A stretch of 20,703 bases of DNA from Lachnospiraceae bacterium (GTDB taxonomy: Bacteria > Bacillota_A > Clostridia > Lachnospirales > Lachnospiraceae): contig JAFWYN010000010.1 of the NCBI GenBank assembly GCA_017522685.1, positions 1 through 20,703 on the forward strand, written 5' to 3'. Position numbers and translations under genes: made by a program. Positions 969 to 20,510 of this stretch are shown here, piece by piece. Position 1 is the stretch's first letter. Every line of letters starts with the position of its first letter. Under the pieces are notes generated by a model that did not search any database, was not told the DNA's origin, and saw nothing but the letters and a program-made list of their open reading frames with translations.

Positions 969-1028
969 TATACATAAGTAAATACTAATTATTTGGATTT
1001 TGAATTATCCACAACCGAGGAGGACACT

Positions 1029-2228
1029 ATGGATTATCAATTAGAAATCAAACAAATCGTGGATTATCCACGCTGTCGCATTTACCGCGATTTTATACGT
1101 ACTCTTATGCAAGATAGAAACATCCGTACCAATGGAAGTTCCTATCTTTTTTATTACACCGTGCTTTGCTCCTACGCCAACTTCCGTTCATCTTATCGAA
1201 AGCTGGACGGTATCTCCTACCTGATTGGTCCCGGAGAATGGATCTGCAAGGCATCCGAATTATCACAATGGTTCCGCATGCGCTACCAGCACCAGGCAGT
1301 ATCCGTACTGGAATATCTGCAAGGCCAGAATTATATTACCTTTACCAGATTGGGCAGGGGCAATCTCATTAAATTCTGTATTACCGACTGGAAAAAGCAT
1401 AACATGGCCTTTGATTACAACTACCCATGTCAGAAAGATGTGGGCTTTTTCTTTTTCCCCATTGCTGCCGTTCACGAACTGGTCAGTATGGGCAAATGTT
1501 CGGAAATGGACATCATCCTGGATCTTTGGATGCATACCATTTATAACGACGAACAGGTACAGGGTTCCGCAGTGGGTCCTGTCGTATACTTCAGAAACTG
1601 CACCGGTAATCCATTAATCAGTTACAGTGATCTGGCAATCCGTTGGAGTATCTCCAAGGCGACTGTCAGCCGCACACTGAACAAACTTCAGGAAGCAGAA
1701 TACATATCGCTGGTTTCTTTTACCGGAAAACACGGCAGTGTTATATATCTGTGTAACTATCTGTCTACTATGTTCAATATCAGTGACGTCATGATTGATA
1801 AGGAGGAAATATCCATGGCATTTCAAATACCCGTTCACCTTTCTGATACCCCATCCATATTGGAGGACATTGATATCAGGGATGAGCAAATAACTATTAT
1901 GGAGGACGAAACAAGCGTTTCATCCAATGCATTTAGCGTTTCAAAATCTGACATGCATTCTGTCATCAAAAAAGTGGCTAAAATCCTTGCTGCACAAGGG
2001 ATTCCATGCTGTGAATGCCCCAAAACCCAATATAAGTTATATCCTTTATCCGACTGGAATGAAAGTAATATACAGTACTCTCTACAGCTTGCCTGCGGAA
2101 ACGGGGATACCAGGTATCAGTTTGAGATTACCTTCCACCCGGCAGACAGTCCGACGAAGGAACACGTACTGTCTGAAAATACATCCGCATCATCCATCCA
2201 AACAGAAAGGAGCCTGAACCATGAATAA
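1029..2228 (+). CDS. Two-winged-helix DNA-binding protein, probable element replication/regulatory protein
   Basis: 399 residues from the ATG at 1029, which has GAGGAGG (1017-1023) five bases upstream; a longer reading from 993 lacks a ribosome site. The N-terminal third (about residues 45-120: SYLFYYTVLCSYANFR, then GEWICKASELSQWF and LEYLQGQNYITF) reads as a winged helix of the type seen in plasmid and conjugative-element replication proteins. A second helix-turn-helix lies at about residues 195-235 (YSDLAIRWSISKATVSRTLN, then KLQEAEYISL as the wing helix). The last 140 residues are acidic and Ser/Thr-rich and resemble no domain I know. The stop overlaps the next start by 8 bases, so the two genes are translated as a pair. 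It is the first gene of the rightward block, fitting a replication initiator or master regulator. The DNA-binding fold is likely; the exact role is inferred. Confidence 0.6.
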   Translation: MDYQLEIKQIVDYPRCRIYRDFIRTLMQDRNIRTNGSSYLFYYTVLCSYANFRSSYRKLDGISYLIGPGEWICKASELSQWFRMRYQHQAVSVLEYLQGQNYITFTRLGRGNLIKFCITDWKKHNMAFDYNYPCQKDVGFFFFPIAAVHELVSMGKCSEMDIILDLWMHTIYNDEQVQGSAVGPVVYFRNCTGNPLISYSDLAIRWSISKATVSRTLNKLQEAEYISLVSFTGKHGSVIYLCNYLSTMFNISDVMIDKEEISMAFQIPVHLSDTPSILEDIDIRDEQITIMEDETSVSSNAFSVSKSDMHSVIKKVAKILAAQGIPCCECPKTQYKLYPLSDWNESNIQYSLQLACGNGDTRYQFEITFHPADSPTKEHVLSENTSASSIQTERSLNHE

Positions 2229-2751
2229 AAAGTTACCGAAAGATGTCCTGGAAAACCCTGTTTACCATAACACATGGATCCTTTTAAAGAATTACCGGGA
2301 TGCAGTATGGAACCTGGAACTTGCCGTACAGCAGGTTCGCAGCAATTTCGAAATCGAGTATGGGACAACCATCGAAGAATTCCTGGATTCCATCTATCTG
2401 GCCGGAGCGGATCTGAATGGTTCTAAGCTGGAGGATTATGCAAAGAGCATTGAACGTTCCAACAAGATGTTAAAACTGATTGATTCCTCTGTGAACATAC
2501 TCAGAAACAAACATAAGCATGGAGAGCAGTATTACTGGATTTTATACTACAGCTTTCTCTCCCCGCAACAATTGCAGAATACGGATGAGATTATAGAGTG
2601 CCTGCATCCCCATATTGCAAACATCTCTACCCGTACTTATTACCGCAAACGTCCGGAGGCAATACGTGCTCTGAGCAGTATTCTCTGGGGATATACATCC
2701 AAGGAATGTCTGAGCATGTTGGACCAATTTGTTCCTCCGGAGGGACTATAA
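2221..2751 (+). CDS. ArpU/RinA-like putative transcription activator (sigma region 4-like C-terminus)
   Basis: 176 residues, overlapping the preceding gene by 8 bases with its ribosome site (GAAAGGAG) inside that gene. The N-terminal half is helical and charged. The C-terminal part has LQNTDEIIECL, then ISTRTYYRKRPEAIRALSSI, then LWGYTSKE. This S-x-R-T-Y-Y-R-x-R-x-x-A-I-x-x-L pattern is how the second helix of sigma-70 region 4-type helix-turn-helix domains reads in phage late-gene activators (ArpU, RinA, DUF1492 groups). Those proteins switch on late or export operons in phages and mobile elements. The gene ends only 38 bases before the promoter of the transfer operon (2789-2835), a natural place for its activator. 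Assignment is by motif resemblance only; it could be an unrelated helical protein. Confidence 0.5.
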   Translation: MNKKLPKDVLENPVYHNTWILLKNYRDAVWNLELAVQQVRSNFEIEYGTTIEEFLDSIYLAGADLNGSKLEDYAKSIERSNKMLKLIDSSVNILRNKHKHGEQYYWILYYSFLSPQQLQNTDEIIECLHPHIANISTRTYYRKRPEAIRALSSILWGYTSKECLSMLDQFVPPEGL

Positions 2752-2788
2752 CAGCATTCTGTTCCTTACATGGTTTAAAATGGGCGTT

Positions 2789-2835
2789 CATGGCACAGTT
2801 TTGCGATTTACGGGTCATTTTTGCCATGCTATAAT
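2789..2835 (+). promoter_or_regulatory. Promoter and upstream box of the transfer operon (copy 1 of a shared module)
   Basis: A TATAAT -10 box (2830-2835) lies 17 bases from a weak -35, TTTACG (2807-2812). Immediately upstream is GGCACAGTTTTGCGATT (2792-2808). The same block, with one change, stands at the same distance from the -10 box at 16524-16570 before the second operon. GCCAT/ATGGC (2823-2827, 2834-2838) form a small inverted repeat around the -10. A poor -35 with a conserved upstream box suggests activator dependence. Confidence 0.75.
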
Positions 2836-2881
2836 GGCTATGTTTAAAACTGTGTCCAAAATTTCATATCCAATCCAACAG

Positions 2882-2906
2882 GCATCCAAACTAAGGATGC
2901 TTTTTT
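2882..2906 (+). terminator. Leader terminator 1 (between promoter and first transfer gene)
   Basis: GCATCC (2882-2887), a 7-base loop, GGATGC (2895-2900) and six T residues make a compact intrinsic terminator. It is about 40 bases downstream of the predicted transcription start and upstream of the first gene of the operon, so it would cut the transcript short unless overridden. Confidence 0.75.
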
Positions 2907-2911
2907 ATTTC

Positions 2912-2943
2912 GGCAGGGAACAAGCACGTTTCCTGCCCTTTTT
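2912..2943 (+). terminator. Leader terminator 2, in tandem with the first
   Basis: GGCAGGGAAC (2912-2921) pairs with GTTTCCTGCC (2928-2937) over ten positions including one G-T pair, with a 6-base loop, followed by C and TTTTT (2939-2943). It lies 10 bases before the AAGGAGG ribosome site of the first transfer gene. Confidence 0.75.
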
Positions 2944-2969
2944 ATTACAATCAAGGAGGTATCAACCAA

Positions 2970-3365
2970 ATGAGACAAAAAGACACGTTCAATGTAACAG
3001 GAACACCACCAAAGAAATGCCGAAAGAAGTTTCCCAGGTATCCCGGAGGAAAGCTCATGGCAGCCTTGTATTTCTTGCTGCTGTATACAAAGCCCGTACA
3101 TGCAGCTGATATATGGGCAAAAGCCAATCTGCTTATGCGTAACATCTACAGTCAGATATTGGGGATTTCTACCATTGCTGCGGTTGTCACTGCATCCATT
3201 GCTCTATTACTTATGAACTTCAGCAGATCCGGACGAACCGTGGATGAATCCCGTGCCTGGTTAAAACGCATTATTCTCTGCTGGGCTATCCTAAACAGTC
3301 TGGGATTTATCCTTGCCTATATCACTCCCTTCTTCCAAGGCGGGCAATGGATTCCGGGAACATAA
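2970..3365 (+). CDS. VirB2/TrbC-like conjugative pilin candidate
   Basis: 131 residues with AAGGAGGT (2953-2960) ahead of the ATG. The N-terminus is long and very basic (MRQKDTFNVTGTPPKKCRKK). It is followed by a hydrophobic stretch ending LYTKPVHAADIW, a plausible leader-peptidase site after AHA-type small residues (P-V-H-A, about residue 45). Two further membrane spans follow: ILGISTIAAVVTASIALLL (about 62-82) and IILCWAILNSLGFILAY (about 100-117). A cleaved leader plus two hydrophobic helices with a short polar loop is the layout of VirB2/TrbC pilins, although this one is basic in the loop. It is the first gene of the type IV secretion block, directly before the VirB6-like gene, which fits. 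Sequence identity to known pilins is not evident, so the call rests on layout and position. Confidence 0.55.
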   Translation: MRQKDTFNVTGTPPKKCRKKFPRYPGGKLMAALYFLLLYTKPVHAADIWAKANLLMRNIYSQILGISTIAAVVTASIALLLMNFSRSGRTVDESRAWLKRIILCWAILNSLGFILAYITPFFQGGQWIPGT

Positions 3366-3380
3366 ACGGAGGCTTATGGT

Positions 3381-4091
3381 ATGGGCATTTTAGATAACAT
3401 TGTGGAGTGGATAGCCACCCAGGTAATGAATGGCCTGGACCTGATTACCACCTCGGTTTTAGGGGCACTGGGGTGCGATATGCAAACGTTCCTGCGCTAT
3501 TTCCCGGCTGCAGAAACCATGTATGAAATCTTTGTTGCCACCGCCATCGGACTGGTACTGCTCAACTGGGTATGGCAGTTGTTTAAAAACTTCGGTCTGG
3601 TTGCCGGAGTGGATGCCGAAGACCCAGTAAAACTAAGCCTTCGCTCTATCCTGTTTATTGCGCTTATTTTTTACTGCGGCCATATTACAGACATCATGCT
3701 GGATATAGGTGGAACCCCATACACATGGATACTTACTTCCGAGCTTCCACCTATTCGCTTTGCAGATTTTCATGCGGTCCTTCTGACAATCCTTGGTGTC
3801 TTTTCCAATGGTTCCGTGACTCTTATCGCACTAATTCTTGTTTTGATTCTTGCCTGGAACTACATCAAACTGCTGTTGGAAGCTGCTGAACGCTATATTC
3901 TTCTGGGTGTGCTGGTTTACACGGCGCCGGTAGCCTTTGCCACCGGAGCGTCCCAGTCCACCTCCGGCATTTTCAAATCCTGGTGCCGGATGTTTGCTGG
4001 TCAGATGTTCCTGCTTATCATGAACGCATGGTGCCTGCGCCTTTTTACATCCATGGTCGGCAGGTTCCTTGCAAATCCATTGTCACTGTAG
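3381..4091 (+). CDS. VirB6/TrbL-like polytopic channel protein
   Basis: 236 residues; GGAGG (3368-3372) is eight bases before the ATG at 3381. The ATG at 3376 is out of frame and stops at once. An amphipathic start (MGILDNIVEWIATQVMNGLD) is followed by about five to six membrane spans: around residues 50-68, 87-105, 130-160, 168-190 and 205-225. Typical of the family are the long central hydrophobic region, LAWNYIKLLLEAAERYILLG and YTAPVAFATGASQSTSGIFK. VirB6/TrbL proteins form the inner-membrane part of the DNA-transfer channel. The stop codon overlaps the ribosome site of the next gene, so the two are tightly coupled. In relatives the VirB6 protein often carries a long soluble tail; here the next gene may supply it. 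Confidence 0.75.
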   Translation: MGILDNIVEWIATQVMNGLDLITTSVLGALGCDMQTFLRYFPAAETMYEIFVATAIGLVLLNWVWQLFKNFGLVAGVDAEDPVKLSLRSILFIALIFYCGHITDIMLDIGGTPYTWILTSELPPIRFADFHAVLLTILGVFSNGSVTLIALILVLILAWNYIKLLLEAAERYILLGVLVYTAPVAFATGASQSTSGIFKSWCRMFAGQMFLLIMNAWCLRLFTSMVGRFLANPLSL

Positions 4092-4100
4092 GAGGACACT

Positions 4101-4982
4101 ATGAAACACAAGAAATTTTTACTTTTCTGTACCACCCTGTGTTTACTGGTACAGCCCGTAACGGCATTGGCTCTCACTGAAGAGGACGTGCTTGCCGTCG
4201 GAAAAGAAACTGCCACCGGCAACGTGTTTATCTGGTTTTTATGCGCCATTGCCTTTTTAAAGATTAGCCAAAAGATTGACAGCTTTATGAATAGTATAGG
4301 GATCCATGTAGGGCAGACCGGTGGTTCCATGCTGTCTGAGCTTATGGTTACAGCAAGAGGAATTACCTCTTTCAAAAATCTAGCAGGAGGGGGCTCCTTT
4401 AGCAGTTCCTCCCCGAGCAGCCGGGCAGCCAATCATGCTGCCATGTCCGGTGGGCTTGCCGGAATCATCAGCAGACAGTTTATGCAAAATACTATGACTA
4501 CCATGACCGGTCAAAGCAATAACGTCATTAACCGAAAAGCCTTTGAGAACTCCTTAAAAAAGGGAGGGAATTTCGCTAACAGCGTTACCGGGGCTGTGGC
4601 TCAGGGAAGCATCAGCCAGATTGGCTCCATGACAGGTGACCATGCTGCTGAAGCACTAACCTCCTATCTGGGGCAGACCGGTATGGAAGACATACCTAAC
4701 TACCATAATGTGGAAATTGGCGGCGGACGTATTACGGGCACGGAAACAAGCTCAAACCATCCGGATGGTGCTGCCTTTGCCATGTATCATGCAGACCTGT
4801 ATCTGCCACCGGAAGGAACATACGAAACCGTGCCCGCAGCAGACGATTCCGTCTGGTACAAGCAATATGCAGCCGACACCGTAGAACGTATCCCTTACCT
4901 GAACGAATCCGGCGATATTGCCTACCATGAAAGTATAGTGAAAAAGCTGCCGGATATACCACGGAGAAAGGACCGTGTATAA
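4101..4982 (+). CDS. Secreted/membrane Gly-Ser-rich transfer protein following VirB6
   Basis: 293 residues. A signal-type N-terminus (MKHKKFLLFCTTLCLLVQPV, then TALALTEED) is followed by one membrane span, NVFIWFLCAIAFLKISQ (about residues 48-64). The middle (about 85-200) is rich in Gly, Ser, Ala and Met, including a run of Ser/Gly at 98-112, and looks flexible. The last 80 residues are acidic and more ordered (GTYETVPAADDSVWYKQYAA) and end in a basic tail. AGGAGG overlaps the stop of the VirB6-like gene 10 bases upstream. In relatives, tails like this are fused to TrbL/VirB6, so a separate VirB6 C-terminal partner is the best guess. No enzymatic motif is seen. Confidence 0.5.
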   Translation: MKHKKFLLFCTTLCLLVQPVTALALTEEDVLAVGKETATGNVFIWFLCAIAFLKISQKIDSFMNSIGIHVGQTGGSMLSELMVTARGITSFKNLAGGGSFSSSSPSSRAANHAAMSGGLAGIISRQFMQNTMTTMTGQSNNVINRKAFENSLKKGGNFANSVTGAVAQGSISQIGSMTGDHAAEALTSYLGQTGMEDIPNYHNVEIGGGRITGTETSSNHPDGAAFAMYHADLYLPPEGTYETVPAADDSVWYKQYAADTVERIPYLNESGDIAYHESIVKKLPDIPRRKDRV

Positions 4983-4983
4983 C

Positions 4984-5622
4984 ATGACAGCCTACTTACT
5001 TTGGGAAAACAGAAAGCTAATCGGCAAGATTTTAGCTGCAGCTGCTTTCCTCTTTTTTCTGCCGATTTTATATATCATGATGCTTCCATCACTGATATTT
5101 GGCAGTGCTGGCATGGATACCGTTTCAGAAAACGTGCTGACCGATTCTTCCATTATCTCTGAAAATATAGGGGAAGCAGAATCTGCCATCTCTGATTTAT
5201 TAGCGGATGCCCATGATGCTGTTCTCTCCGAAATCCAAAAGGAAGTGGAGAACCTTGAAAAAAACGAGGAATACAGTATTTCGGATGACTTTGCAGACCA
5301 TAACCTATACGAAACGGCCTCTGTGATTTCCCAGTTCTGCGCCTCGGAGGAAAATTATCAGGAAATCAATCTTACCAAATTGAAGCATGTGTTAAAGCAA
5401 CATGAAAAGGAGTTCTTTGATTACAGCGTATCTGCTTCCAGCTATGAAAAGCAGGAAGAACAGACCCAAAAGAACATACGGATCACCCACTATCATTACA
5501 CGGTTCAGTATATCGGTAGTGCATACTTTGCAGATACCGTATTTGCTCTTACGGAAGAGGAAAAAATAATTGCAGAAGAATATGCAGCCAATCTGAATCT
5601 CTTACTGCAAGAAGAACCTTGA
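4984..5622 (+). CDS. Single-pass membrane transfer protein resembling the N-terminal part of VirB1-type hydrolases
   Basis: 212 residues from the ATG at 4984, one base after the preceding stop; a GTG at 4975 is an alternative that would overlap. One membrane span (about 14-38, KILAAAAFLFFLPILYIMML) is followed by a Glu/Asp-rich helical region likely to form a coiled coil (about 55-100). A compact domain ends HYHYTVQYIGSAYFADTVFA, then LTEEEKIIAEEYAANLNLLL. From memory, this N-terminal arrangement precedes lysozyme-like and NlpC/P60 or CHAP domains in the cell-wall hydrolases of Firmicute conjugative elements. Here the gene stops where the hydrolase should begin, and no such domain is seen elsewhere in the window. 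It may act as a VirB8-like scaffold, or have lost its enzyme part. Confidence 0.5.
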   Translation: MTAYLLWENRKLIGKILAAAAFLFFLPILYIMMLPSLIFGSAGMDTVSENVLTDSSIISENIGEAESAISDLLADAHDAVLSEIQKEVENLEKNEEYSISDDFADHNLYETASVISQFCASEENYQEINLTKLKHVLKQHEKEFFDYSVSASSYEKQEEQTQKNIRITHYHYTVQYIGSAYFADTVFALTEEEKIIAEEYAANLNLLLQEEP

Positions 5623-5649
5623 CACTATTTTTATACATGGAGGTATTAC

Positions 5650-8565
5650 ATGTCCACTAGACAAGAAGAACACGATACATATATCATACCGCCAAATTTT
5701 ATAGAAACCGGAACCCTGTTTGGCGGAACCATAAAAATCCGGAATGCCCTGGAAGCCCTGGTACTTACCCTGTTAATCGGGATACCGGTTTTCCATCTGC
5801 CATTCCCACTGACTACCAATATCATTATTGCCTGCCTGACCGTACTTCCGGCAGCACTGCTTGCACTCATCGGCATTGACGGGGACAGCCTGGGTTCCTT
5901 TATACTTCATTTTATCCGTTTTTTAAAGAACCGGCGTATGCTTGGAACCCCGGAAGGTGAGTATGTATCTGCCACCCCACAGAAAACCAGAGCAGACAAA
6001 CAACGAAAAAAGCACAAACCTCCAAAAGAGGATTTCGCAGAAGAATTTGGTCAAAGAGAACGGACAAAGAAAGGAACCGGCCCTAAAGAATCAGACACCG
6101 TACCTTTAAACCCTGTTGCCGCATATCTTCCCTTCCGGAAGGTGGAACAGGGTATTCTTTATACCAAAGACCACCGGTATGTGAAGATTGTGGAGGTACT
6201 GCCCATTAACTTTTTACTGAGAAGTGCAAGGGAACAGCGGAATATTATTTATTCCTTTGTCAGTTACCTGAAGATAAGCCCGGTCAAACTGCAGTTCAAG
6301 GTTCTGACCAAGCGGGCGGATATCAACAAGCATCTGACTACCTTGCAGGAGGAAATGGGGCAGGAAACAAACGAGAAATGCCTTGCCCTGCATAAAGATT
6401 ATGAGAAGTTGATTAAACGCCTTGGTTCCAAAGAAGCCACCACCAGACGTTTTTTTCTCATCTTTGAATATGAACCACTGACAGCCAACCGTAATTCAGA
6501 TGAAAAGGATGCCATTGCTACCCTGAATACCGCGGTCCGGACTGCGGCCACCTATCTGCAACAGTGCGGAAATGAGATTGTCCAGGCCGATGATGAAAAT
6601 GAAATGGTCCTGGAGCTCTTCTATCATCTGTTAAACCGGCACACCAGTTCCCATAAGCCATTTGGTACCCATGTAAGTGAAGTTATGACACAGTATATAA
6701 ATGCCGGACGAAGGGACGAGCTCTATACCATTCCGGCTGCAGAATTTGTAGCCCCCAAGTATATGGACTTTACACACGGAAACTATGTACGGATGGACGG
6801 AGTATACCACAGTTATCTCTTAATTCCTTCCAGCGGTTATCGCACACAGGTCTATGCAGGATGGCTTTCCCTTCTGGTAAACGCCGGGGAAGGAATCGAC
6901 GTGGACCTCTTTTTTGAAAAGCAGCCCAAAGACCGTATCCAGCAAAAGTTAGGTCAACAGCTGCGTATTAACCGTTCCAAATTAAAGGATGCCTCTGATA
7001 CCAATACGGACTATGACGATCTGGACAGTGCCATCCGTTCCGGATACTTCTTAAAAAACGGGCTGGCAGCCAATGAGGACTTTTACTATATGAGTGTCCT
7101 GATTACCGTAACCGCTGACACTCTGGAGGAGCTGGAATGGCGAACCAAGGAAATGCAGAAGCTATTGCTTTCTCAGGATATGGAAGCAGTTTCCTGTCAT
7201 TTCCGGGAAGAGCAGGCACTACTCTCTGCTCTACCTCTGGTTCATCTCGACACCGGGCTTTATAAACGTTCCCGCAGGAATGTGCTTACTACCGGCGTTG
7301 CAAGCTGTTATCCTTTTACTTCCTACGAAATGTGTGACGACAACGGAATCTTACTTGGTGTCAACAAACACAATAACTCCCTTGTCATTGTGGACATCTT
7401 TAATTCCAGGACTTACAAAAATGCCAATATAGCAATCCTTGGTACATCCGGTGCCGGCAAAACCTTTACCATGCAGCTCATGGCACTGCGTATGCGGAGA
7501 AAGAATATACAGATATTTATCATTGCTCCCTTAAAGGGACATGAATTTCACCGGGCATGCAACAATATCGGCGGTGAATTTATCCAGATTTCCCCGGCAT
7601 CCAAAAACTGTATTAATATTATGGAAATCCGCAAGGCTGACCACTCCGTCACAGACCTGATTGACGGTCCCAAGTCAGACCATTCGGAACTGGCCGCGAA
7701 AATCCAGCGTCTGCATATATTCTTTTCACTGCTCATACCGGATATGAGCCATGAAGAAAAACAGCTTTTGGATGAAGCCCTGATACAGACCTATAACCAA
7801 AAAGGCATTACCCACCATAATGAAAGCCTTGTTTCACCGGACCATCCTGATCATTACCGGAAAATGCCGGTACTGGAGGATGTGTACAACATCCTGACAG
7901 ACAACCCGGAAACCAAAAGACTTGCCAATATCATGAATCGTCTGGTACACGGCTCTGCCGCAACCTTTAACCAGCAGACCAACGTAAATCTGGATAATAA
8001 ATATACGGTGCTTGATATTTCCGAACTGACCGGCGACCTGCTTACGGTAGGAATGTTTGTGGTACTGGATTATGTCTGGGATAAGGCAAAGGAAGACCGT
8101 ACCGTGGAAAAAGCCATTTTCTTAGACGAGATATGGCATCTGATCGGGGCCTCCTCTAATCGTCTCGCGGCAGAGTTTGTTTTAGAGATCTTTAAGATCA
8201 TCCGTGGGTATGGTGGTTCTGCCATCTGTGCCACACAGGACCTGAACGACTTCTTTTCTCTGGATGATGGCAAGTACGGGAAGGGAATTATCAATAATGC
8301 GAAAACCAAGATTATCTTAAATTTGGAGGATGAGGAAGCAACGCGGGTTCAGTCCGTTTTACATCTGTCTGAGGCAGAAACTATGGCAATTACCCATTTT
8401 GAACGCGGTAACGGCTTGCTCTCTACCAACAACAATCATGTAACTCTGGAATTTAAGGCGTCTGAGCTGGAAAAGGAACTGATTACCACAGACCGTCAGG
8501 AACTGAAAAACCTGCTTGCCAAAGAACGGCTCCGCCAGACCATGCGGAAAACTATCAATATGTAA
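5650..8565 (+). CDS. virB4: VirB4-family conjugation ATPase with PrgI-like N-terminal membrane region
   Basis: 971 residues, ribosome site TGGAGG upstream. Residues 1-25 are polar (YIIPPNFIETGTLFGGTIK) and two membrane spans follow (about 30-48 and 53-72). This matches PrgI/VirB3-type proteins, so VirB3 and VirB4 appear fused. Residues about 150-560 correspond to the VirB4 N-terminal domain. The ATPase core has Walker A GTSGAGKT at 598-605, Walker B AIFLDEIWHLIG around 822-833 (D826, E827), and the ATQDLNDFF segment around 864-872 typical of the family. VirB4 powers assembly and substrate transfer at the inner membrane base of the secretion channel. Length is normal for the fused form. The gene's last 25 codons are duplicated downstream (see 8489-8907). 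The family call is certain. Confidence 0.95.
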   Translation: MSTRQEEHDTYIIPPNFIETGTLFGGTIKIRNALEALVLTLLIGIPVFHLPFPLTTNIIIACLTVLPAALLALIGIDGDSLGSFILHFIRFLKNRRMLGTPEGEYVSATPQKTRADKQRKKHKPPKEDFAEEFGQRERTKKGTGPKESDTVPLNPVAAYLPFRKVEQGILYTKDHRYVKIVEVLPINFLLRSAREQRNIIYSFVSYLKISPVKLQFKVLTKRADINKHLTTLQEEMGQETNEKCLALHKDYEKLIKRLGSKEATTRRFFLIFEYEPLTANRNSDEKDAIATLNTAVRTAATYLQQCGNEIVQADDENEMVLELFYHLLNRHTSSHKPFGTHVSEVMTQYINAGRRDELYTIPAAEFVAPKYMDFTHGNYVRMDGVYHSYLLIPSSGYRTQVYAGWLSLLVNAGEGIDVDLFFEKQPKDRIQQKLGQQLRINRSKLKDASDTNTDYDDLDSAIRSGYFLKNGLAANEDFYYMSVLITVTADTLEELEWRTKEMQKLLLSQDMEAVSCHFREEQALLSALPLVHLDTGLYKRSRRNVLTTGVASCYPFTSYEMCDDNGILLGVNKHNNSLVIVDIFNSRTYKNANIAILGTSGAGKTFTMQLMALRMRRKNIQIFIIAPLKGHEFHRACNNIGGEFIQISPASKNCINIMEIRKADHSVTDLIDGPKSDHSELAAKIQRLHIFFSLLIPDMSHEEKQLLDEALIQTYNQKGITHHNESLVSPDHPDHYRKMPVLEDVYNILTDNPETKRLANIMNRLVHGSAATFNQQTNVNLDNKYTVLDISELTGDLLTVGMFVVLDYVWDKAKEDRTVEKAIFLDEIWHLIGASSNRLAAEFVLEIFKIIRGYGGSAICATQDLNDFFSLDDGKYGKGIINNAKTKIILNLEDEEATRVQSVLHLSEAETMAITHFERGNGLLSTNNNHVTLEFKASELEKELITTDRQELKNLLAKERLRQTMRKTINM

Positions 8566-13391: not shown

Positions 13392-14414
13392 ATGTCCACA
13401 AAGAATGTTTTAGAAGAAACAAATGAAGAATTGAATATCGACCAGCCAGAAGAACGTATAACCTCTGGAGAAAAAAGTGCATTTACAACAGAAGAACCAA
13501 GAAAACCGGCTCCTTCTTCTATTCTGACCTTAAATGCTGATATGGAAATAGAAACTCAGGAAAGTCGTGAAGATACGATCTGGCATGAACTGCAGAATGC
13601 GTACCGTACCCGAAAAGTATTAGTGGGAACTCTCGGCGGTATTGAGAAACTGGAAGGCGGAAACACCATCGCTATTGTATATTACAAAGGAATGCGCGTG
13701 GTAATCCCTCTCACGGAAATGATGATCAATCTGATCGTAGATGAAGCCCATGATTATGGGGAACTGTTCCAGCGGCAAAATAAGATTCTCGGAAATATGC
13801 TGGGATGTGAAATTGACTTTATCGTAAAGGGCCTTGATAACAGCACACGCAGTGTCGTTGCCAGTCGCAAAGATGCCATGTACAAAAAACGCCAAATCTT
13901 CTACCTGCCGGATGCCAATGGCAACTCCCGTGTTTGTGAAGACCGCGTGGTACAGGCCAGAGTCATTGCAGTCGCTGAAAAAGTAATCCGCGTAGAAATC
14001 TTTGGTGTCGAATGCTCCATTCTCGCCCGCGACCTTTCCTGGGACTGGCTAGGCGATGCCACCGAACACTTCCACGTAGGAGAACATATCCTAGTACGTA
14101 TCCTAAACATAAAGATTACTTCCCTTGAGAACATCGCTGTGAAAGCAGACGTGAAAAGTGTTACCAATAACACCAGCAAGGAAAACCTCGCCAAATGCAA
14201 AGTCCAAGGCAAATATGCCGGCACCGTTACCGACATCCATAAAGGCACTGTATTTGTCCGCCTTCATATCGGTGTCAATGCCATTGCCCATAGCTGCTAT
14301 GACGACCGCATGCCAGGCAAGAAGGATGAAGTCAGCTTCGTAGTTACCAGGATTGACGAAGAGAGGAATGTGGCGGTAGGGTTGATTTCTAGGATTATTA
14401 GGCAGAATGTTTAA
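13392..14414 (+). CDS. Multi-S1-domain (OB-fold) RNA/ssDNA-binding protein of the element
   Basis: 340 residues, AAAGGAG ribosome site before the ATG. The first 60 residues are acidic and disordered. Three S1-like OB folds follow: about 72-160 (TRKVLVGTLGGIEKLEGG to DFIVKGLDNSTRSVVASRKD), 180-255 (DRVVQARVIAVAEKVIRVEI, then the WDWLGDATEHFHVGEHILVR segment) and 270-338 (VQGKYAGTVTDIHKGTVFVR to DEERNVAVGLISR). The S1 fold binds RNA or single-stranded DNA, as in ribosomal protein S1. Similar S1-repeat proteins sit behind the coupling protein in other Firmicute conjugative elements as I recall them, with unknown role. It is the last gene of the first rightward operon; no convincing rightward terminator follows. 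Confidence 0.75.
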   Translation: MSTKNVLEETNEELNIDQPEERITSGEKSAFTTEEPRKPAPSSILTLNADMEIETQESREDTIWHELQNAYRTRKVLVGTLGGIEKLEGGNTIAIVYYKGMRVVIPLTEMMINLIVDEAHDYGELFQRQNKILGNMLGCEIDFIVKGLDNSTRSVVASRKDAMYKKRQIFYLPDANGNSRVCEDRVVQARVIAVAEKVIRVEIFGVECSILARDLSWDWLGDATEHFHVGEHILVRILNIKITSLENIAVKADVKSVTNNTSKENLAKCKVQGKYAGTVTDIHKGTVFVRLHIGVNAIAHSCYDDRMPGKKDEVSFVVTRIDEERNVAVGLISRIIRQNV

Positions 14415-14571: not shown

Positions 14572-15147
14572 TTATTGTTTATTACTGTCTTCTGTCTCGA
14601 ATGTTCCTGTCTCTAATAAAAAGAATACATTAGCAAAAGTTAATACGTTAATGTTTTTTTTCTTTCTAGACAAATACAAATCTAAACATGTATTGTAAAT
14701 ATAATCTTCTCCATTTGTTGTTATTGGTTTGCATATACTATGTCGTTTTACATTATCTTTATTCTTACTTTGTTTTTCTTCATATATTCTAAAACTTTCA
14801 ACAATAGAAAAGGCAGTATACAAACCAATATACTCATTGATTAATGAATACTTTTGCGAAAACTTCTGGTCTTTTATAAACTTATCCCAAATTACGCTGG
14901 GTTTAATTGCTACAGGACGAACTTTTGCAATAGCATACATCATACAAGCAGCAATCTTATGTCTATCTAGATGTGTCTTAGGGTTTTGCATATAATTCAC
15001 TTTTAAGTAGGTTTTTTTCTTTTGATATTCTTTATACACCCTATCTTTTGCAAACAATTTTATATATACTTCTTCTTTTGGGTACAATTCATTACATACC
15101 GGCAAAACAATGTTCTGCCATATTTCATCATACTTTTCCCTTGTCAT
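14572..15147 (-). CDS. Unknown basic soluble protein, last gene of AT-rich leftward cassette
   Basis: 191 residues from the ATG at 15147, with AGGAG (minus strand, 15154-15158) six bases upstream; that site overlaps the stop of the small gene before it. I do not recognise the family. The protein is Lys-rich and mostly helical, without a signal or membrane span. The most distinctive stretch is KTHLDRHKIAACMMYAIAKV (about residues 57-76), with His-x-x-Arg-His, followed by SLINEYIGLYTAFSIVESFR. A catalytic motif is not evident. Codon use is much more AT-rich than in the flanking transfer genes, which suggests separate acquisition. It probably functions with the two membrane proteins encoded upstream; an accessory defence or toxin-immunity role is only a guess. 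Confidence 0.65.
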   Translation of the reverse strand: MTREKYDEIWQNIVLPVCNELYPKEEVYIKLFAKDRVYKEYQKKKTYLKVNYMQNPKTHLDRHKIAACMMYAIAKVRPVAIKPSVIWDKFIKDQKFSQKYSLINEYIGLYTAFSIVESFRIYEEKQSKNKDNVKRHSICKPITTNGEDYIYNTCLDLYLSRKKKNINVLTFANVFFLLETGTFETEDSNKQ

Positions 15148-15156
15148 CAATTTCTC

Positions 15157-15315
15157 CTAGTCAAAATGAAAAAATTGTTGCATTGGAACTTTGTCTATTA
15201 CTATTTCGTCATTAACGAATTTTTTTATTACAAATACGCAAGAATTAATGTAAGTCCAGGTACCACACATCAAAAAAAACAATGCAACTAAAATTGAAAA
15301 AATTAAAATACTCAT
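15157..15315 (-). CDS. 52-residue single-pass membrane peptide
   Basis: The reading frame MSILIFSILVALFFLMCGTW to MQQFFHFD has one strong N-terminal membrane helix (residues 2-18) and a short polar tail with KKFVNDEIVIDKV. The upstream ribosome site is weak (AAGAGAGAG on the minus strand). It lies 22 bases after the polytopic membrane gene. Its stop overlaps the ribosome site of the following gene, which supports a real, co-translated gene. Function unknown; size fits a small accessory subunit or toxin-like peptide. Confidence 0.55.
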   Translation of the reverse strand: MSILIFSILVALFFLMCGTWTYINSCVFVIKKFVNDEIVIDKVPMQQFFHFD

Positions 15316-15337
15316 ATTACTCTCTCTCTCTTAATAA

Positions 15338-15808
15338 TTAACTCTGTACTTGGTTTAATCTCCGTAGTCGAGTCATCAAAAGCCCTGGAACAATTGATGA
15401 CAAACCTATAAATAAAACACTCATCATAGCAAAAGAAATTTGTATTTTCCATGAAAGAAAAGCAGGAAAAACATTTGTAAAACTACATTGAGTAACTACA
15501 ATAACCATTCCTTTCTCTTTATCTAAAATAATATTAAGACCACCAAGTGCACCTATCAATTCAACAATAGTCAATAAAAAATTGCAAATAGCTAAACCAT
15601 AGCTAATATAATATATTCCCGTCTCTAGCTTTCCTACTCTTGCGTTTGCATCAATACACAAAAAAATTAAATCAAATACAATTGCGCCTGTATATATTAA
15701 AACCGAAGCAAAAAAAGTTTGACCATTGATTTTATCACCATCTAACCCCGTAAATAAAATAACCCACGATAATGTTAAAAATACAAGCTTTACTCCATAT
15801 GTAACTTT
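15338..15808 (-). CDS. Polytopic membrane protein of unknown function, first gene of the leftward cassette
   Basis: Starting at GTG 15808, which has GGGGA about seven bases ahead, the protein is about 156 residues; a TTG at 15838 would add ten residues but has no ribosome site. Four to five hydrophobic helices are seen: LVFLTLSWVILFTG, TFFASVLIYTGAIVFDLIFL, GIYYISYGLAICNFLLTIVE, LIGALGGLNIIL, and SFAMMSVLFIGLSSIVPGLL. There is no cytoplasmic domain of note and no family I recognise. It leads the three-gene AT-rich unit and has a plausible promoter just upstream. Confidence 0.6.
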   Translation of the reverse strand, partial: KVTYGVKLVFLTLSWVILFTGLDGDKINGQTFFASVLIYTGAIVFDLIFLCIDANARVGKLETGIYYISYGLAICNFLLTIVELIGALGGLNIILDKEKGMVIVVTQCSFTNVFPAFLSWKIQISFAMMSVLFIGLSSIVPGLLMTRLRRLNQVQS

Positions 15809-15876
15809 CACTATCTTTCCCCATCTTAATGTATCCAAAAATAACCCAAGTACGCCAATTACTTGAAATTATCATG

Positions 15877-16497: not shown

Positions 16498-16570
16498 CCC
16501 ATTTTGGCACAAATCTTTCCCAACATGGCACAGTATTGCGATTTACACTGTCATTCTGTCATGCTAAAAT
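16498..16570 (+). promoter_or_regulatory. Promoter and upstream box of the pilus operon (copy 2 of the shared module)
   Basis: TAAAAT (16565-16570) lies 17 bases from TTTACA (16542-16547). The upstream box GGCACAGTATTGCGATT (16527-16543) differs by one base from the box at 2792-2808 and lies at the same distance from the -10 box. The motif CCCANNNTGGCACA appears twice here, at 16498-16511 and 16519-16532, a 21-bp period that would put two protein-binding half-sites on the same face of the DNA. Confidence 0.75.
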
Positions 16571-16597
16571 AGGTATTGTGATAATTCATATTTACAG

Positions 16598-16643
16598 AAA
16601 ACGCAGGTATTGAAGTTTCCCCCTCCTTCCGCCTGCGTTTTTT
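16598..16643 (+). terminator. Leader terminator of the pilus operon
   Basis: AAAACGCAGG (16598-16607) pairs with CCTGCGTTTT (16632-16641) over ten bases with a 24-base loop, ending in a run of six T (16638-16643). It begins about 20 bases after the predicted transcription start and lies before the first gene's ribosome site, repeating the arrangement seen in the first operon. Confidence 0.7.
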
Positions 16644-16654
16644 CTGTTTGGGAG

Positions 16655-17086
16655 GTGAAATCAATAAAAAAACTTAAACACAGGCTTTTATCGGAAAGGG
16701 GTGAAGCCTCTTACATCAGTACCTTTATCTATATTTTAGTGGTGGTAATTATGATTGCTTTCATATTGAATGTATTTCACATCATATCCGTAAAGCAGGA
16801 AATGGATCATCTGGCGGATCAGATGGTAAAGCAAATCCAGTTAAACGGCGGAGTAAACCATGACACGGATGCATTGTTTGCATATCTATCCGATAATATT
16901 TCCGGGACGGAACCCATCACTTATGACCTTACCTGTAGTGGGAATCCCAGCCGGATTCAGATAGGTACTCCTTTTTATATCTCCGTGTCTGCCACCTGTT
17001 ACCTTGGAGGATTTGGGAATTTTAATCTGTTTCCCATTCACATCCGGTCCCAGGGTGCGGGAGTCAGTGAGCATTACTGGAAATAG
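16655..17086 (+). CDS. TadE/DUF4320-like pseudopilin
   Basis: About 143 residues if read from the GTG at 16655. The N-terminus is basic (KKLKHRLLSERGEASYISTF) and is followed by one membrane span, IYILVVVIMIAFILNVFHII. The R-G-E before the hydrophobic helix matches TadE-type pseudopilins, in which a Gly-Glu pair marks the prepilin peptidase site. The rest is a small beta-rich domain ending EHYWK. Start selection is odd: the GTG overlaps the GGGAGG ribosome site, while the perfectly spaced codon at 16664 is ATA. The longer reading from a TTG at 16610 would begin inside the leader terminator and is unlikely. I recall the family as DUF4320. It lies eight bases before the next pseudopilin. Confidence 0.65.
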   Translation: MKSIKKLKHRLLSERGEASYISTFIYILVVVIMIAFILNVFHIISVKQEMDHLADQMVKQIQLNGGVNHDTDALFAYLSDNISGTEPITYDLTCSGNPSRIQIGTPFYISVSATCYLGGFGNFNLFPIHIRSQGAGVSEHYWK

Positions 17087-17094
17087 GGGGTGCC

Positions 17095-17574
17095 ATGAAG
17101 AAACGTATACACAATGAAACCGGTGCATTGAACATCCTGTCCACATTTATTATGCTGGCAGTCACCATGCTGATGTCTTTTGTGTTACTTGCTGCTTCTG
17201 TGCAGATAAACTGTATCAACATCCGCAATGCTGCCAAAATGGAATTAAACAATATCAGTGCCCGTATTTATCCAGACACCTATCCGTCCCAGCGGGAAGT
17301 GGATCTTAGTTATTACATGGATACGCTGAACTTCAGTCAGCTCTACCAGAACACCCTGCGGGCAGATTTTATAAACGGACTTTCCACCAGAATTCCGGTG
17401 GAAAATGAGCATTATACAATTTCAAATATCCACCTGCAGTTTTCCAGAGCGTCGGATACCATTCGTTATGAAATGAACTGCGATGTTACCTTCCATCTTC
17501 AGATGTTTGGAAACCGTTATCCTATCACCATACAGCAAATTGTTCTGACCGGCTCACATAAAATTAAAATTTAA
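17095..17574 (+). CDS. Second TadE-like pseudopilin
   Basis: 159 residues, with AGGGGG eight bases upstream. The start MKKRIHNETGALNILSTFIM is followed by a membrane helix LAVTMLMSFVLLAASVQI (about residues 18-40). T-G-A in place of the usual G-E makes the peptidase site less standard. The extracellular part (45-159) has a helical segment, then predicted strands ending ITIQQIVLTGSHKIKI. It pairs in length and layout with the preceding gene, as TadE/TadF do in Tad pilus systems. These proteins are minor pilins placed in the membrane with the body outside. Which is the major subunit cannot be told from sequence. Confidence 0.6.
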   Translation: MKKRIHNETGALNILSTFIMLAVTMLMSFVLLAASVQINCINIRNAAKMELNNISARIYPDTYPSQREVDLSYYMDTLNFSQLYQNTLRADFINGLSTRIPVENEHYTISNIHLQFSRASDTIRYEMNCDVTFHLQMFGNRYPITIQQIVLTGSHKIKI

Positions 17575-17636
17575 AGTTGTAAATCAGGACCCCAATTCGT
17601 ATAGGGTATATAGATACAGGAAGGGAGACGTACCTT

Positions 17637-18230
17637 ATGAAGAAAATAAGCAATCATACAAAAATAAAATGTATCCTGTTAGGATTGTCTATCTTTGCAA
17701 TCCTAATTTCTTTAACGGACTGGAGATTTACTCAGGATCCGGCTCAGAACTTTACACCAATGCCGGAAGAAACCGGCTCCATGACCGATACCTGGGAAGA
17801 GGAGCCTTACTATCCGGAAATCCTGATAGCAGGTGATAGTCCGGATGCCGCGTCCGGTCATGTGGATTCTACGCCGGGACCGGAAACAATCGAGGCTTCT
17901 GACCAGAACCTTTTTGACTCTGAGCAAACGGTATCTTTATCTGTTTCCACCACTAAGGACACCACAGACACTACACCTCCGGAGGAAAAACCGGTTACCA
18001 CCGATTCTTTAACCAATCCGGATAAGAAGCCGGAATACGACGAGTCTGTGCCACTCCATACCGAGACCAAGGATTTCAAGGAACCGAAACGCAGCGAAAC
18101 CGTTTCTGTTACCTCTTCCGGTCAGGTTTATGATCCGGTCTTTGGCTGGATTCAGACCGGAGATACCAATCAGAACGTAGTGGACAGCAGCGGCGACATT
18201 AACAAACAAATCGGAACAATGGGTAATTAA
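17637..18230 (+). CDS. Single-pass extracytoplasmic protein of the pilus operon (DUF6550-like)
   Basis: 197 residues. A short basic start and one membrane span (KCILLGLSIFAILISLTDW, about 11-30) precede a long low-complexity stretch rich in Thr, Ser, Asp, Glu and Pro (about 35-155), probably extended and cell-wall spanning. The C-terminus is conserved in look: SGQVYDPVFGWIQTGDTNQN, then VVDSSGDINKQIGTMGN. I recall this tail from a family named DUF6550, function unknown. GGAAGGGAG serves as the ribosome site. The tail may hold a partner or the wall near the pilus base. No enzyme motif. Confidence 0.55.
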   Translation: MKKISNHTKIKCILLGLSIFAILISLTDWRFTQDPAQNFTPMPEETGSMTDTWEEEPYYPEILIAGDSPDAASGHVDSTPGPETIEASDQNLFDSEQTVSLSVSTTKDTTDTTPPEEKPVTTDSLTNPDKKPEYDESVPLHTETKDFKEPKRSETVSVTSSGQVYDPVFGWIQTGDTNQNVVDSSGDINKQIGTMGN

Positions 18231-18242
18231 TAAGAACTTTTT

Positions 18243-18269
18243 GGGCATGGTCAAGCACCATGTCCTTTT
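18243..18269 (+). terminator. Weak intra-operon hairpin terminator
   Basis: GGGCATGGT (18243-18251) and ACCATGTCC (18257-18265) pair over nine positions with one G-T pair, followed by TTTT. It lies between two pilus-operon genes, just ahead of the next ribosome site, and may reduce read-through. Confidence 0.5.
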
Positions 18270-18295
18270 CATTGCCCGGAAAGGAGGCATATTTC

Positions 18296-20068
18296 TTGCT
18301 TTATAAAAAAAGAACAATTTTTCCACTTATATTTGCCGTAATTCTTTATTTGTCCACATCCCTGACATGTTTTGCTGCAGGAGATGGAAATATTGACAGC
18401 GGAGGCGGCTTAATGGGAGAAGGCACCGCTACAGACGTATGGCATCATGAGGATGGCGTTCGTGTCACCGTGGTTACTGCAGACGGTACCATAGTGGCCA
18501 CGCCCTTTGACCTGACCAACTATGATATCGGAGATAATATCATTCATTTTGGTAAAGTATGTAAGCTTCAGTATACTGCGGGTACCGAGCTTTCCCCCGG
18601 AAGCACATACAGCTGTTCCAAACCCGGAACGGCACTGCCGCATATAATCAGCCGGACAACTACACGAGTAAGTCTGGATGAAATCAAACGGTATTTCTGT
18701 TCGGAATATGCCGCCCAGCTGGTGGCTGCCCAAACCGGTATTTCTTTTGAAGAATTGATTTCCGGTAATTACAAGCTGGTGATTGAACCCATTGCCTATT
18801 TCACCCATGGCGGACGAAATTATGCCATGACCGCTACCGAAGCAGCACTGTATAACCAACTGTCCCATGGCGCCTTACGAAGAACCATGGTCAGTCTGTC
18901 CCACCAGAATCTGCCCCTTGCCCTGTTTTTGGAATATCCGGACCTGGGATATCCTGCATGGACGGGAACCCGTAACAGCAGTGTTTCCGATACGGAGATT
19001 CTGGATGCTTTGGGTATCGGTATTGTCCGGTATCCGGACCCATCCGATACGCCGGACCAGGCACCGGATTATACATACCGGGTAGATACGGATGTAATCA
19101 CCAGTATCACCCTGACCAGTACCACAGAAGTCAATCCGGAGGATCCTGCAAGTGTTACTTTTCATATTCTGGGACAGGACTATACCGTAAATAACATTGT
19201 CATGCCGGCGGGGAGCTCCCAGTTAGTATGGGTAAAATGGCATACACCAGCATTCCCTGGTACCGTTTCCATAGATGTGACGGTAACAGGAGTCTCCGCT
19301 GCCAAAACAGATTTTCTTGCCCAGATTATTTCCCTGGACGAGAACCCGCCACCGGATCCGCAGGCAACGGATACCTATCCGGGATTCCGCACTCCAACCC
19401 TGCCTTCCGATTATGAAAACACGTATGTAAGCTGGAGCGTATGGAATGCCCACTGGGTACCGGACTGGCAATGGGACGAGCAGTGGAAATGGCTCCTTGG
19501 TCCCTTCTGGACAGAAGGGGAGTGCACGGAAGAATGTCCGGTGAACTGCACAGAGGACCACAGCGGTTGGAAAACCGATTGGCACTGGGAAGACCAGGGG
19601 GAATGGGTGGACCATGGAGAATATGAGTTTACCTCAACCGGTTATTATGCTTCCATAGAAGGCAGTATGCAAATTTATCCGGATGTTACCATCCCGGATT
19701 ATCCGGAATATTATATGCGCAGCGGCTATGGCATCACCGAATCTGCCGTCGCTTACGTTTCCAGCAATGCTCCCGATCAGATAACCAAAGCACAAAACGC
19801 CGTATCCTATTTTCCGGAATTTCACTACGCCACGTACTGGCGTCTTCTTGCTTTAGATGGGCAGCATTTCACGTTCCGTTCCAACCCCTACTCCATTCAG
19901 GGAAGGAACGTACATTTTACACCGGTCTGGTTTCCGGATGAAAGCTACACCGTGTACACCCGTGTGCTGGATGCCTGGACACCGGCCGGCATGCTGTCCA
20001 TAAATGTACACGATTCCATACAGATCCAGGGCAGTCTGTATGACGATTGGTACAGTAAACGTGAATAG
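18296..20068 (+). CDS. Large secreted surface protein with CARDB-like domain and Trp-rich block
   Basis: 590 residues when started at TTG 18296, eight bases after AAGGAGG; the ATG at 18260 lies inside a hairpin and is unlikely. Residues 1-28 (MLYKKRTIFPLIFAVILYLS, then TSLTCFAA) are a clear signal peptide. Residues about 30-250 form a beta-rich domain of unknown kind (YFCSEYAAQLVAAQTGISFE; GGRNYAMTATEAAL). About 263-335 resemble a CARDB-type immunoglobulin fold (ITSITLTSTTEVNPED to VSIDVTVTG). About 380-440 hold 12 tryptophans and three cysteines (ECTEECPVNC), alternating with acidic residues. The C-terminal 140 residues are again beta-rich. No LPXTG or membrane anchor is seen. In this operon it is a candidate tip adhesin or pilus-associated factor. 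Function unknown. Confidence 0.65.
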   Translation: MLYKKRTIFPLIFAVILYLSTSLTCFAAGDGNIDSGGGLMGEGTATDVWHHEDGVRVTVVTADGTIVATPFDLTNYDIGDNIIHFGKVCKLQYTAGTELSPGSTYSCSKPGTALPHIISRTTTRVSLDEIKRYFCSEYAAQLVAAQTGISFEELISGNYKLVIEPIAYFTHGGRNYAMTATEAALYNQLSHGALRRTMVSLSHQNLPLALFLEYPDLGYPAWTGTRNSSVSDTEILDALGIGIVRYPDPSDTPDQAPDYTYRVDTDVITSITLTSTTEVNPEDPASVTFHILGQDYTVNNIVMPAGSSQLVWVKWHTPAFPGTVSIDVTVTGVSAAKTDFLAQIISLDENPPPDPQATDTYPGFRTPTLPSDYENTYVSWSVWNAHWVPDWQWDEQWKWLLGPFWTEGECTEECPVNCTEDHSGWKTDWHWEDQGEWVDHGEYEFTSTGYYASIEGSMQIYPDVTIPDYPEYYMRSGYGITESAVAYVSSNAPDQITKAQNAVSYFPEFHYATYWRLLALDGQHFTFRSNPYSIQGRNVHFTPVWFPDESYTVYTRVLDAWTPAGMLSINVHDSIQIQGSLYDDWYSKRE

Positions 20069-20510
20069 CTTACCAACCTGGTATCTCATAGGTACCATCC
20101 TGTATCTGATAGGAATTGCCCTGTATGACATCCGCCATCATAAGATTAAGAACCTTGCCCTGTTCTTATTTTTAATCTGGTGCCTGTTCTCCCTGCCTCT
20201 TGGGTTACAGGGCGAATGGAACCAGATACTTTCCCGCATCCAGGATAGCCTGATTGGATTTTTCCTGGGTGTCTTTCTTTTTCTGATTGTTTCCTACCTT
20301 CCGGGTTGCCATATGGGTGGTGGGGACATCAAGCTTGCTGCACTGTTAGGCATTCTGGCAGGACCTAAAGGAATCCTTACCATTTCCTTTGTCGGTACGG
20401 CCTATGCTTTACTTTACCTGCAGCTATGGTGCAAAAAGCCGCAACAGGCAATTCCCTTTGCACCCTTTTTCCTATTAGGAACCTTAACACAATTGATTAT
20501 TTGGAGGTAA
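20040..20510 (+). CDS. A24-family prepilin peptidase (TadV/CpaA type)
   Basis: 156 residues if started at ATG 20040, overlapping the surface protein gene; a GTG at 20061 would give a shorter form with 8 bases of overlap, and neither has a strong ribosome site. The catalytic aspartates are seen in ALYDIRHHKIKN (D30) and in the GxGD motif, here MGGGDIKLAALLG (D96). Four or so hydrophobic helices surround them. The short form, without the N-terminal methylase domain, is typical of Tad/Flp pili. It cleaves the leader of pilins on the cytoplasmic side; the pseudopilins upstream in this operon are the natural substrates. Family call is firm. Confidence 0.88.
   Translation: MTIGTVNVNSLPTWYLIGTILYLIGIALYDIRHHKIKNLALFLFLIWCLFSLPLGLQGEWNQILSRIQDSLIGFFLGVFLFLIVSYLPGCHMGGGDIKLAALLGILAGPKGILTISFVGTAYALLYLQLWCKKPQQAIPFAPFFLLGTLTQLIIWR

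Follow-up and report, generated by a model that had tools for sequence, protein, structure and literature searches.

Why would a transfer operon be given a promoter that is followed, before any coding sequence, by two terminators, and how would RNA polymerase get past them? The question arises from the window, i.e., the whole 20,703-nt stretch of Lachnospiraceae DNA analysed here, for which a sequence-only reading had placed two tandem intrinsic terminators between a promoter and the first transfer gene and proposed that the operon is released by antitermination. Both hairpins and their U-tracts lie where that reading put them (Table 1); T2 has the 10-bp stem and U5 described for it and T1 the reported U6 (a T run ending at 2906), while the stem of T1, given earlier as 6 bp, has eight pairs in our scan. 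Structure prediction, named earlier as a check and run here on the RNA 2842-2975, returns the T1 and T2 hairpins together with a short helix that closes the structure (-31.9 kcal/mol, z -3.1), and the leader RNA before T1 is largely unstructured in the window. In the ~37 nt before T1 no leader peptide equipped with a ribosome site is seen, as had been stated, and only 26 nt separate the T run of T2 from the start codon at 2970, which leaves no room for another promoter between T2 and the gene, the arrangement that would have spoken against the layout. The predicted default product of the promoter with T1 and T2 is an RNA of 60-100 nt. The score of the promoter is tied with that of one other site in 1500-6000, which lacks the TG, and since the scan as a whole gave 10 sites vs. 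8.7 in shuffles, i.e., no excess, the support for this promoter is its conservation (below). A transcription start at ~2842 would be consistent with it.

Table 1. Predicted features of the two leaders, the adjoining genes and the second operon in the window (all on the forward strand).
Feature	Position	Strand	Description
411-aa winged-HTH protein	993-2228	+	TTG start as listed; overlaps 176-aa gene
176-aa RinA/ArpU-like regulator, candidate antiterminator	2221-2751	+	directly 5' of promoter
Conserved DNA block TGGCAC..TGCGATTT	2791-2812	+	extends into -35 (TTTACG 2807-2812); column conservation, 44 non-redundant modules
Promoter	2807-2835	+	TTTACG-17-TATAAT with TGn; 10/12 consensus matches
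Extended -10, TGC TATAAT	2827-2835	+	hexamer 2830-2835
-10-like hexamer TATGTT	2839-2844	+	begins 9 nt after -10 start
AAAACTGTGTCC	2846-2857	+	inverted partner of upstream block CACAGTTTT 2794-2802; repeat I2, 9/9
T1	2880-2906	+	stem-loop 2880-2902 and T run to 2906; 8 pairs, 4 G-C, loop 7
T2	2912-2943	+	stem-loop 2912-2937, T5 at 2939-2943; 10 pairs, 6 G-C, loop 6
First transfer gene, 131-aa membrane protein	2970-3365	+	AAGGAGG at 2953-2959
Second promoter module TGGCACAGTATTGCGATTTACA	16526-16579	+	TTTACA-17-TAAAAT with TG; -10 TAAAAT 16565-16570
-10-like TATTGT of second copy	16574-16579	+	
Terminator of second copy	16598-16643	+	11-bp stem, long loop, T run; fold z -3.6
Second, pilin-like operon	16610-20510	+	DUF4320, 159-aa ORF, DUF6550, 602-aa ORF, prepilin-peptidase-like gene (Pfam)

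The first transfer gene encodes a membrane protein that we read as VirB2-like ('fimbrial protein' is the name in the source records). Because it is followed by genes for a TraG-domain (VirB4-like) ATPase, DUF5697, DUF6100, a VirD4-like coupling protein (CD1115 family) and an S1-domain protein, the element is, judging by its gene content, a conjugative one. The 131-aa protein has 4282 relatives, and among the best 120 of these, for which details were obtained, the two named by taxon are both from Lachnospiraceae; no relative of this gene was found in the viral contigs searched. The gene for the S1-domain RNA-binding protein (13392-14414; Pfam S1, 2.4e-13) lies behind the VirD4-like gene, and it is conceivable that its product acts with the leader RNA. 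Two opposite-strand ORFs without Pfam matches (14572-15838, minus strand), which look like inserted cargo, separate the transfer operon from the pilin-like operon.

The terminator layout is not peculiar to the window. We took the best 80 of 313 loci from species genomes that encode relatives of the first gene, plus two plasmid records, set the start codons with a ribosome-site heuristic, and scanned the resulting 82 leaders (330 nt each, merged to 77 distinct ones) with one terminator detector throughout. At least two terminators were found in 54 of the 77 distinct leaders and at least one in 76, compared to two and 61, respectively, of 770 dinucleotide shuffles, and to none and 38 of 309 control regions 5' of other downstream ORFs in the same loci. 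Candidate terminators scored inside the operons gave a mixed picture: across 69 regions there were 58 sense vs. 33 antisense sites at a score of at least 15 and 152 vs. 156 at a score of at least 11, with about 19 of the 37 strongest sense sites representing, by eye, two orthologous sites.

The promoter is conserved along with the terminators. A first profile, for which 62 of the 82 leaders were chosen by motif, nine left out and the remainder reduced to 37 distinct sequences, matches 77 of 83 sequences (E <= 4e-5); its members match by construction, and the Blautia-like class, which was absent from profile building, is matched as well. In 76 sequences (L001 left out) the match ends 98-370 nt 5' of the chosen transfer-gene start, and the six loci without a clear match (L006, L023, L026, L029, L057 and L070) each have two terminators and a homologue of the regulator described below. 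In these six, a mostly Oscillospiraceae-like class, T2 carries by eye a near-constant apical GATCGCACTRTC on a variable stem, as if the loop were a recognition point for a protein or RNA. Merging 88 profile matches gave 77 modules, thinned to 44 at 85% identity, and in 76 of the 77 distinct modules a hairpin begins at most 140 nt from the -10 (median 43), L041/L096 being the case with the module and no terminator by the detector used. The promoter and its terminator are thus kept together as a unit. The stems vary (49 distinct ones for T1 and 32 for T2 among the modules) and pairing is kept nonetheless, although these module counts do not represent independent events since the modules share ancestry.

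Conservation within the module is centered on DNA at and around the promoter, the conserved columns being the TGGCAC..TGC block, the TT of the -35, bases in the -35/-10 spacer, the -10 itself and a second -10-like hexamer. All 77 modules have TGn before the -10, a figure that is partly built in because the -10 was picked by a rule requiring A2/T6 and favouring TGn. The -10-like hexamer at offset 9 has A2 and T6 in 39 of the 44 non-redundant modules; A2/T6 hexamers are also found at offsets 15 (29/44), 16 (37/44) and 18 (24/44), so hexamers of this kind are common in the region, and the one at 2839-2844 is a possible candidate for a sigma-dependent element at which polymerase would pause. The block at 2791-2812, part of a profile match with E 3e-16 (the window was among the sequences from which the profile could be built), is likely a regulator site, as judged from its conservation. 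Further, a perfect 9-bp inverted repeat (2794-2802/2846-2854) brackets the promoter of the window; it may serve as an operator, either of a repressor or of the regulator, and its downstream half is absent, by eye, from the Blautia-like leaders and the second copies. Seven Blautia-like leaders (L060, L075, L076, L077, L078, L081 and L082) carry, again by eye, a motif near GAGGCnGGAAAACTATAAGC in the stretch that separates their two hairpins and, in many cases, a GGAGGTGA-like motif past the first hairpin. Finally, 41 of 74 modules have their closest 5' ORF on the opposite strand (at least 300 aa long in 17 of these), and although the caller was crude and small ORFs are possibly spurious, this weakens the idea that T1 and T2 are merely the end of an upstream operon.

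The window contains a second copy of the module (profile match at 16521-16576; E 1e-5 with the first profile and 3e-9 with the second), which has its own terminator and is followed by the pilin-like operon (Table 1). The first ORF of this operon, listed from a TTG at 16610, probably starts later. A GGGAGG (16650-16655) is well spaced from an in-frame ATA (16664-16666), and the BLAST alignment of the DUF4320 ORF with its homologue in L084 begins at the ATA residue, beside the GTG of the L084 ORF; a rare ATA start is thus possible on sequence grounds. Two module copies were also found in eight of 10 other elements (G003, G010, G074, G140, G142, G157, G187 and, on two contigs, G067; G003 and G187 are nearly identical in the module region), and the other two (G052 and G162) have one copy each on contigs that end nearby. 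In L084 (and L110, the same DNA) the gene behind the second copy is a DUF4320 homologue, 48% identical to that of the window. In the Blautia-like element G010, one copy lies 3' of the 176-aa gene (see below) and 5' of an operon with DUF5697 (34%) and VirD4-like (62%) homologues, and the other lies 5' of a VirB2-like gene; G142, G140 and G074 resemble this layout (the first two by eye). Since such split operons each keep a copy, the module appears to accompany the operons even when these are split. Among the loci L083-L122, 20 of 21 module copies (profile E < 0.05; some identical to earlier ones) have a terminator within 250 nt, the exception by the detector being L096, and the best profile match in the reversed sequences of the same loci has E 0.08. 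The linkage of terminator to promoter in many elements and the same layout at a second operon strengthen the earlier proposal of release by antitermination, and the sequence-only interpretation as a whole is partly supported.

What, then, could release the operons? Directly 5' of the first promoter are two overlapping genes, for a 411-aa and a 176-aa protein (Table 1). The former matches Pfam HTH_Tnp_4 (2.9e-6) and the DnaD-like phrog_7498 (3.9e-9), its HTH region matching DnaD-like and replication-initiator phage families. Each of the two families is present in 39 of the 83 sequences, and the 411-aa gene is a conserved partner of the 176-aa gene. Of 13 genomes that carry the transfer gene, 12 have the 176-aa family, vs. 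seven of 137 others (Fisher 3.6e-12, a nominal value because the genomes are related). The 176-aa gene ends 79 nt from the -10 in the window, with similar gaps in many relatives, and lies 3-19 kb from the promoter in some other relatives. Among PHROG families, the 176-aa protein matches phrog_1558 (3.9e-14), phrog_248, a 'transcriptional activator' (4.4e-4), and phrog_36 (0.026), and the last two are also matched by RinA of phage phi11. Direct hhalign comparison of its profile with two phage RinA proteins was weak (E 0.12 and 0.44), and its kinship to RinA-type phage late regulators is therefore distant at best. The AF2 model is all-helical; the best hit of a PDB sequence search with the profile had E 0.43, and a Foldseek search of the model against the PDB gave nothing at E <= 0.001, Q structures being absent from the matches listed. 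The Q-like phrog_79 was not matched by the window protein, only by phi11 RinA (E 0.17) and the distant homologue in L083 (0.033).

The explanation that we favor, to which we give roughly an even chance, is promoter-loaded (Q-type) antitermination of the transfer operon by the 176-aa protein. Specifically, the sigma-A-type promoter would yield a short leader RNA that normally ends at T1 or T2. On induction of the element, the 176-aa protein, perhaps together with its 411-aa partner, would bind the conserved promoter DNA block, meet RNA polymerase paused at the -10-like sequence just past the start, and ride with the polymerase, which would then pass T1 and T2 and read the operon; the same factor would free the pilin-like operon via the second copy (16526-16643). 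DNA binding by the 176-aa protein, polymerase pausing and terminator bypass by the modified polymerase are the steps that we infer. Q systems, according to the accessible part of the literature, depend on a DNA site within the late promoter together with a -10-like pause sequence early in the transcribed region, and they render polymerase resistant to the terminator downstream (PMC6606751). Terminators between promoter and first gene are present in 76 of the 77 distinct modules, and the conserved block reaching into the -35, with the conserved bases of the -35/-10 spacer, may hold a DNA site for the factor. The anatomy of the module appears to match that of Q-type systems in most points.

How far might such a switch extend among related regulators? 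We scanned the 420 nt that follow each of 16 distant homologues of the regulator (for L108, 175 nt). Seven have one or two terminators within 250 nt downstream, six of these with an extended -10 as well (L083, L101, L118, L119, L121 and L122, of which L083 and L122 are near-identical; L115 is without), and nine show no terminator layout downstream. Three distant loci with both regulator genes (L099, L100 and L102) gave no module match. Two homologues lie on phage-labelled contigs: L124 shows a promoter-like TGCTATACT plus a single terminator-like site that does not exceed shuffles, and no such layout was seen in L123. Among genes of the phage RinA type, tested on nine of 109 matching records, a terminator precedes the next gene in seven of nine, with 0.11 expected from shuffles; because three share a leader and two are alike, this amounts to about four independent cases vs. 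two misses (D6E and Vegas). The end of the searched gap was set at ~490 nt for zrk29-2, D6E and Vegas and at 1768 for JNU_P1; the gene annotated next in Vegas starts at 1443, with no terminator ahead of it, and in phi11 a hairpin terminator lies between rinA and terS. In 12 promoters chosen by eye from both sets, a second -10-like hexamer lies 8-10 nt past the first; the Vegas promoter has such a hexamer, the JNU_P1 promoter has none, and SA97 and D6E were outside this comparison. By eye, tRNA-like sequence lies between the phage RinA gene and the terminator in L129:1311-1800 and L131:1332-1855.

We tentatively extend the proposal, with somewhat less than even confidence, to the RinA/Ltr/ArpU 'activators' of Gram-positive phages and conjugative elements in general, which would be promoter-loaded, sigma-region-4-like antiterminators and so correspond, on the Gram-positive side, to lambda Q, AlpA and GafZ. 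Their signature would be a regulator gene followed by a promoter, a -10-like pause element, one or two intrinsic terminators and then the operon. If these proposals are correct, a family of elements that is widespread in gut Clostridia would have its conjugation switched on by terminator bypass and one small protein would coordinate two operons. RinA-type late regulators, which are held to be activators, would need a revised working mode, and the signature would offer a simple way of spotting such switches.

Alternatively, the 176-aa protein might be a pure activator, with T1 and T2 as leak-stoppers against basal and outside read-through and escape from two imperfect terminators sufficing once the promoter is activated. 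This is the main rival since RinA/Ltr proteins, with genes directly 5' of their own promoter, are described as promoter activators in what is available of the Phi13 Ltr paper (PMC13123087), a text in whose accessible part the word 'terminator' is absent. Further in its favor, the -35 is poor (two or three of six matches) in 16 of the 44 modules, as in activator-dependent promoters, repeats are found 5' of the -35 (partly by eye), and the nine distant homologues noted above lack the terminator layout. However, terminators behind a regulated promoter would tax the activated state too, the promoter of the window has a consensus extended -10, and the opposite-strand neighbours in 41 of 74 modules (crude caller) argue that T1 and T2 are not simply the ends of upstream operons. 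In addition, AlpA is an antiterminator rather than an activator, as the accessible part of its description has it (PMC7969949). We consider a pure activator unlikely, while giving it appreciable weight.

Two explanations place the switch in the leader RNA, and we regard both as improbable. Under the first, a cis-acting RNA of the put, EAR, canT or conAn2 type would render polymerase terminator-resistant, and the antitermination systems canT and conAn do belong to Gram-positive conjugative elements (PMC11658703 and PMC8955417, each in its accessible part). However, only ~37 nt of RNA precede T1 in the window (the median hairpin start is 43 nt after the -10), compared to 452 bp for canT, this stretch has little structure in the window, and no Rfam family reached its gathering score in the window and 10 loci. 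Under the second, classical attenuation, the first 20-40 nt of the leader would base-pair with a portion of T1, the choice of fold being set by a metabolite, tRNA, ribosome or second RNA. The earlier remark that no obvious anti-terminator stem was seen largely stands: it holds for the 5' arm of T1, with which leader pairing is at shuffle level (mean z -0.15), and less so for the 3' arm, with which pairing is slightly above shuffles (mean z -0.68, n = 43), reaching -8.1 kcal/mol (z -2.0) in the window and -15.8 kcal/mol (z -4.5) in L069; in 19 of the 43 leaders a duplex with one arm falls below -8 kcal/mol. Pairing with the 3' arm alone does not remove a terminator, however, T2 would need a separate switch, and in five second copies (window 16565, L084, L086, L089 and L097) the 3' arm is at shuffle level (z 0.1 to 1.0). 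We rejected an RNA antiterminator as the leader-T1 pairing is weak and inconsistent.

It is highly improbable, in our view, that the short leader RNA acts in trans while the operon is expressed otherwise: an RNA of the predicted default length would be available for such a role, but past its promoter-proximal part the leader differs, by eye, from class to class and from one copy to the other within an element, and the 26-nt gap holds no promoter that could serve the operon instead. Recruitment of a NusG paralogue of the LoaP type, which the sequence-only reading had offered beside a phage-like factor, has the smallest chance of all, since nine of 13 related host genomes with such elements (the window's own genome is not among them) have a single NusG-domain gene; extra ones in the other four speak in its favor. 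The phage-like factor fits better, a RinA-like protein being encoded directly upstream.

Promoter-loaded antitermination by the 176-aa protein can be set beside the systems already described. In the openly accessible literature on RinA/ArpU/late-regulator, LoaP or Lachnospiraceae-element antitermination, the arrangement reported here was not described among the matches listed. Common to the RinA/Ltr/ArpU regulators and the 176-aa protein are matches to phrog_248 and phrog_36 (for phi11 RinA), a gene directly 5' of a promoter (here in the window and many relatives) and, in phi11, the rinA-terS terminator, but RinA/Ltr/ArpU proteins are described, in the available portions of the sources, as phage activators, whereas the present gene is in a conjugative element, 5' of transfer genes. 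The accessible accounts of canT of Tn916, most likely a long cis RNA (452 bp; PMC11658703), and of ConAn of pLS20, a protein plus an RNA at the operon start (PMC8955417), describe antitermination of conjugation operons in Gram-positive elements, as proposed here. The conserved part here, however, is promoter DNA, with a leader of ~37 nt before T1, and the first gene of the operon is VirB2-like; ConAn, compared by description, has the ConAn1 protein and conAn2 RNA at the operon start.

The favored explanation likens the module to antiterminators that load at a promoter. In lambda, Q is likewise encoded upstream, and our detector places a terminator behind it (L134:1022-1076). The -10-like element of lambda is ~12 nt after the -10 start, compared to 9 nt for the hexamer here. 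Unlike lambda Q, the 176-aa protein has no solid Q sequence match, the hosts are Gram-positive and there are often two terminators in tandem; the -10-like element, a putative promoter DNA site and the terminator before the operon are shared with lambda and 21 Q (pR'-tR'), as far as the accessible text describes these (PMC6606751). The GafYZ regulators of the Caulobacter gene transfer agent are likewise encoded as a two-gene operon, GafZ being, in the available part of the report, an antiterminator with a predicted sigma-like HTH and a putative promoter site (PMC11150451); their terminator comes after the first gene and IHF is required, and the likeness is one of anatomy. AlpA of Pseudomonas aeruginosa targets cell-lysis genes in a Gram-negative bacterium. 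Its likeness to the arrangement proposed for the window is anatomical and lies in one small protein, a site in the promoter, and two target operons, in which, as the accessible text has it, the first ORF is preceded by one and by two intrinsic terminators, respectively (PMC7969949).
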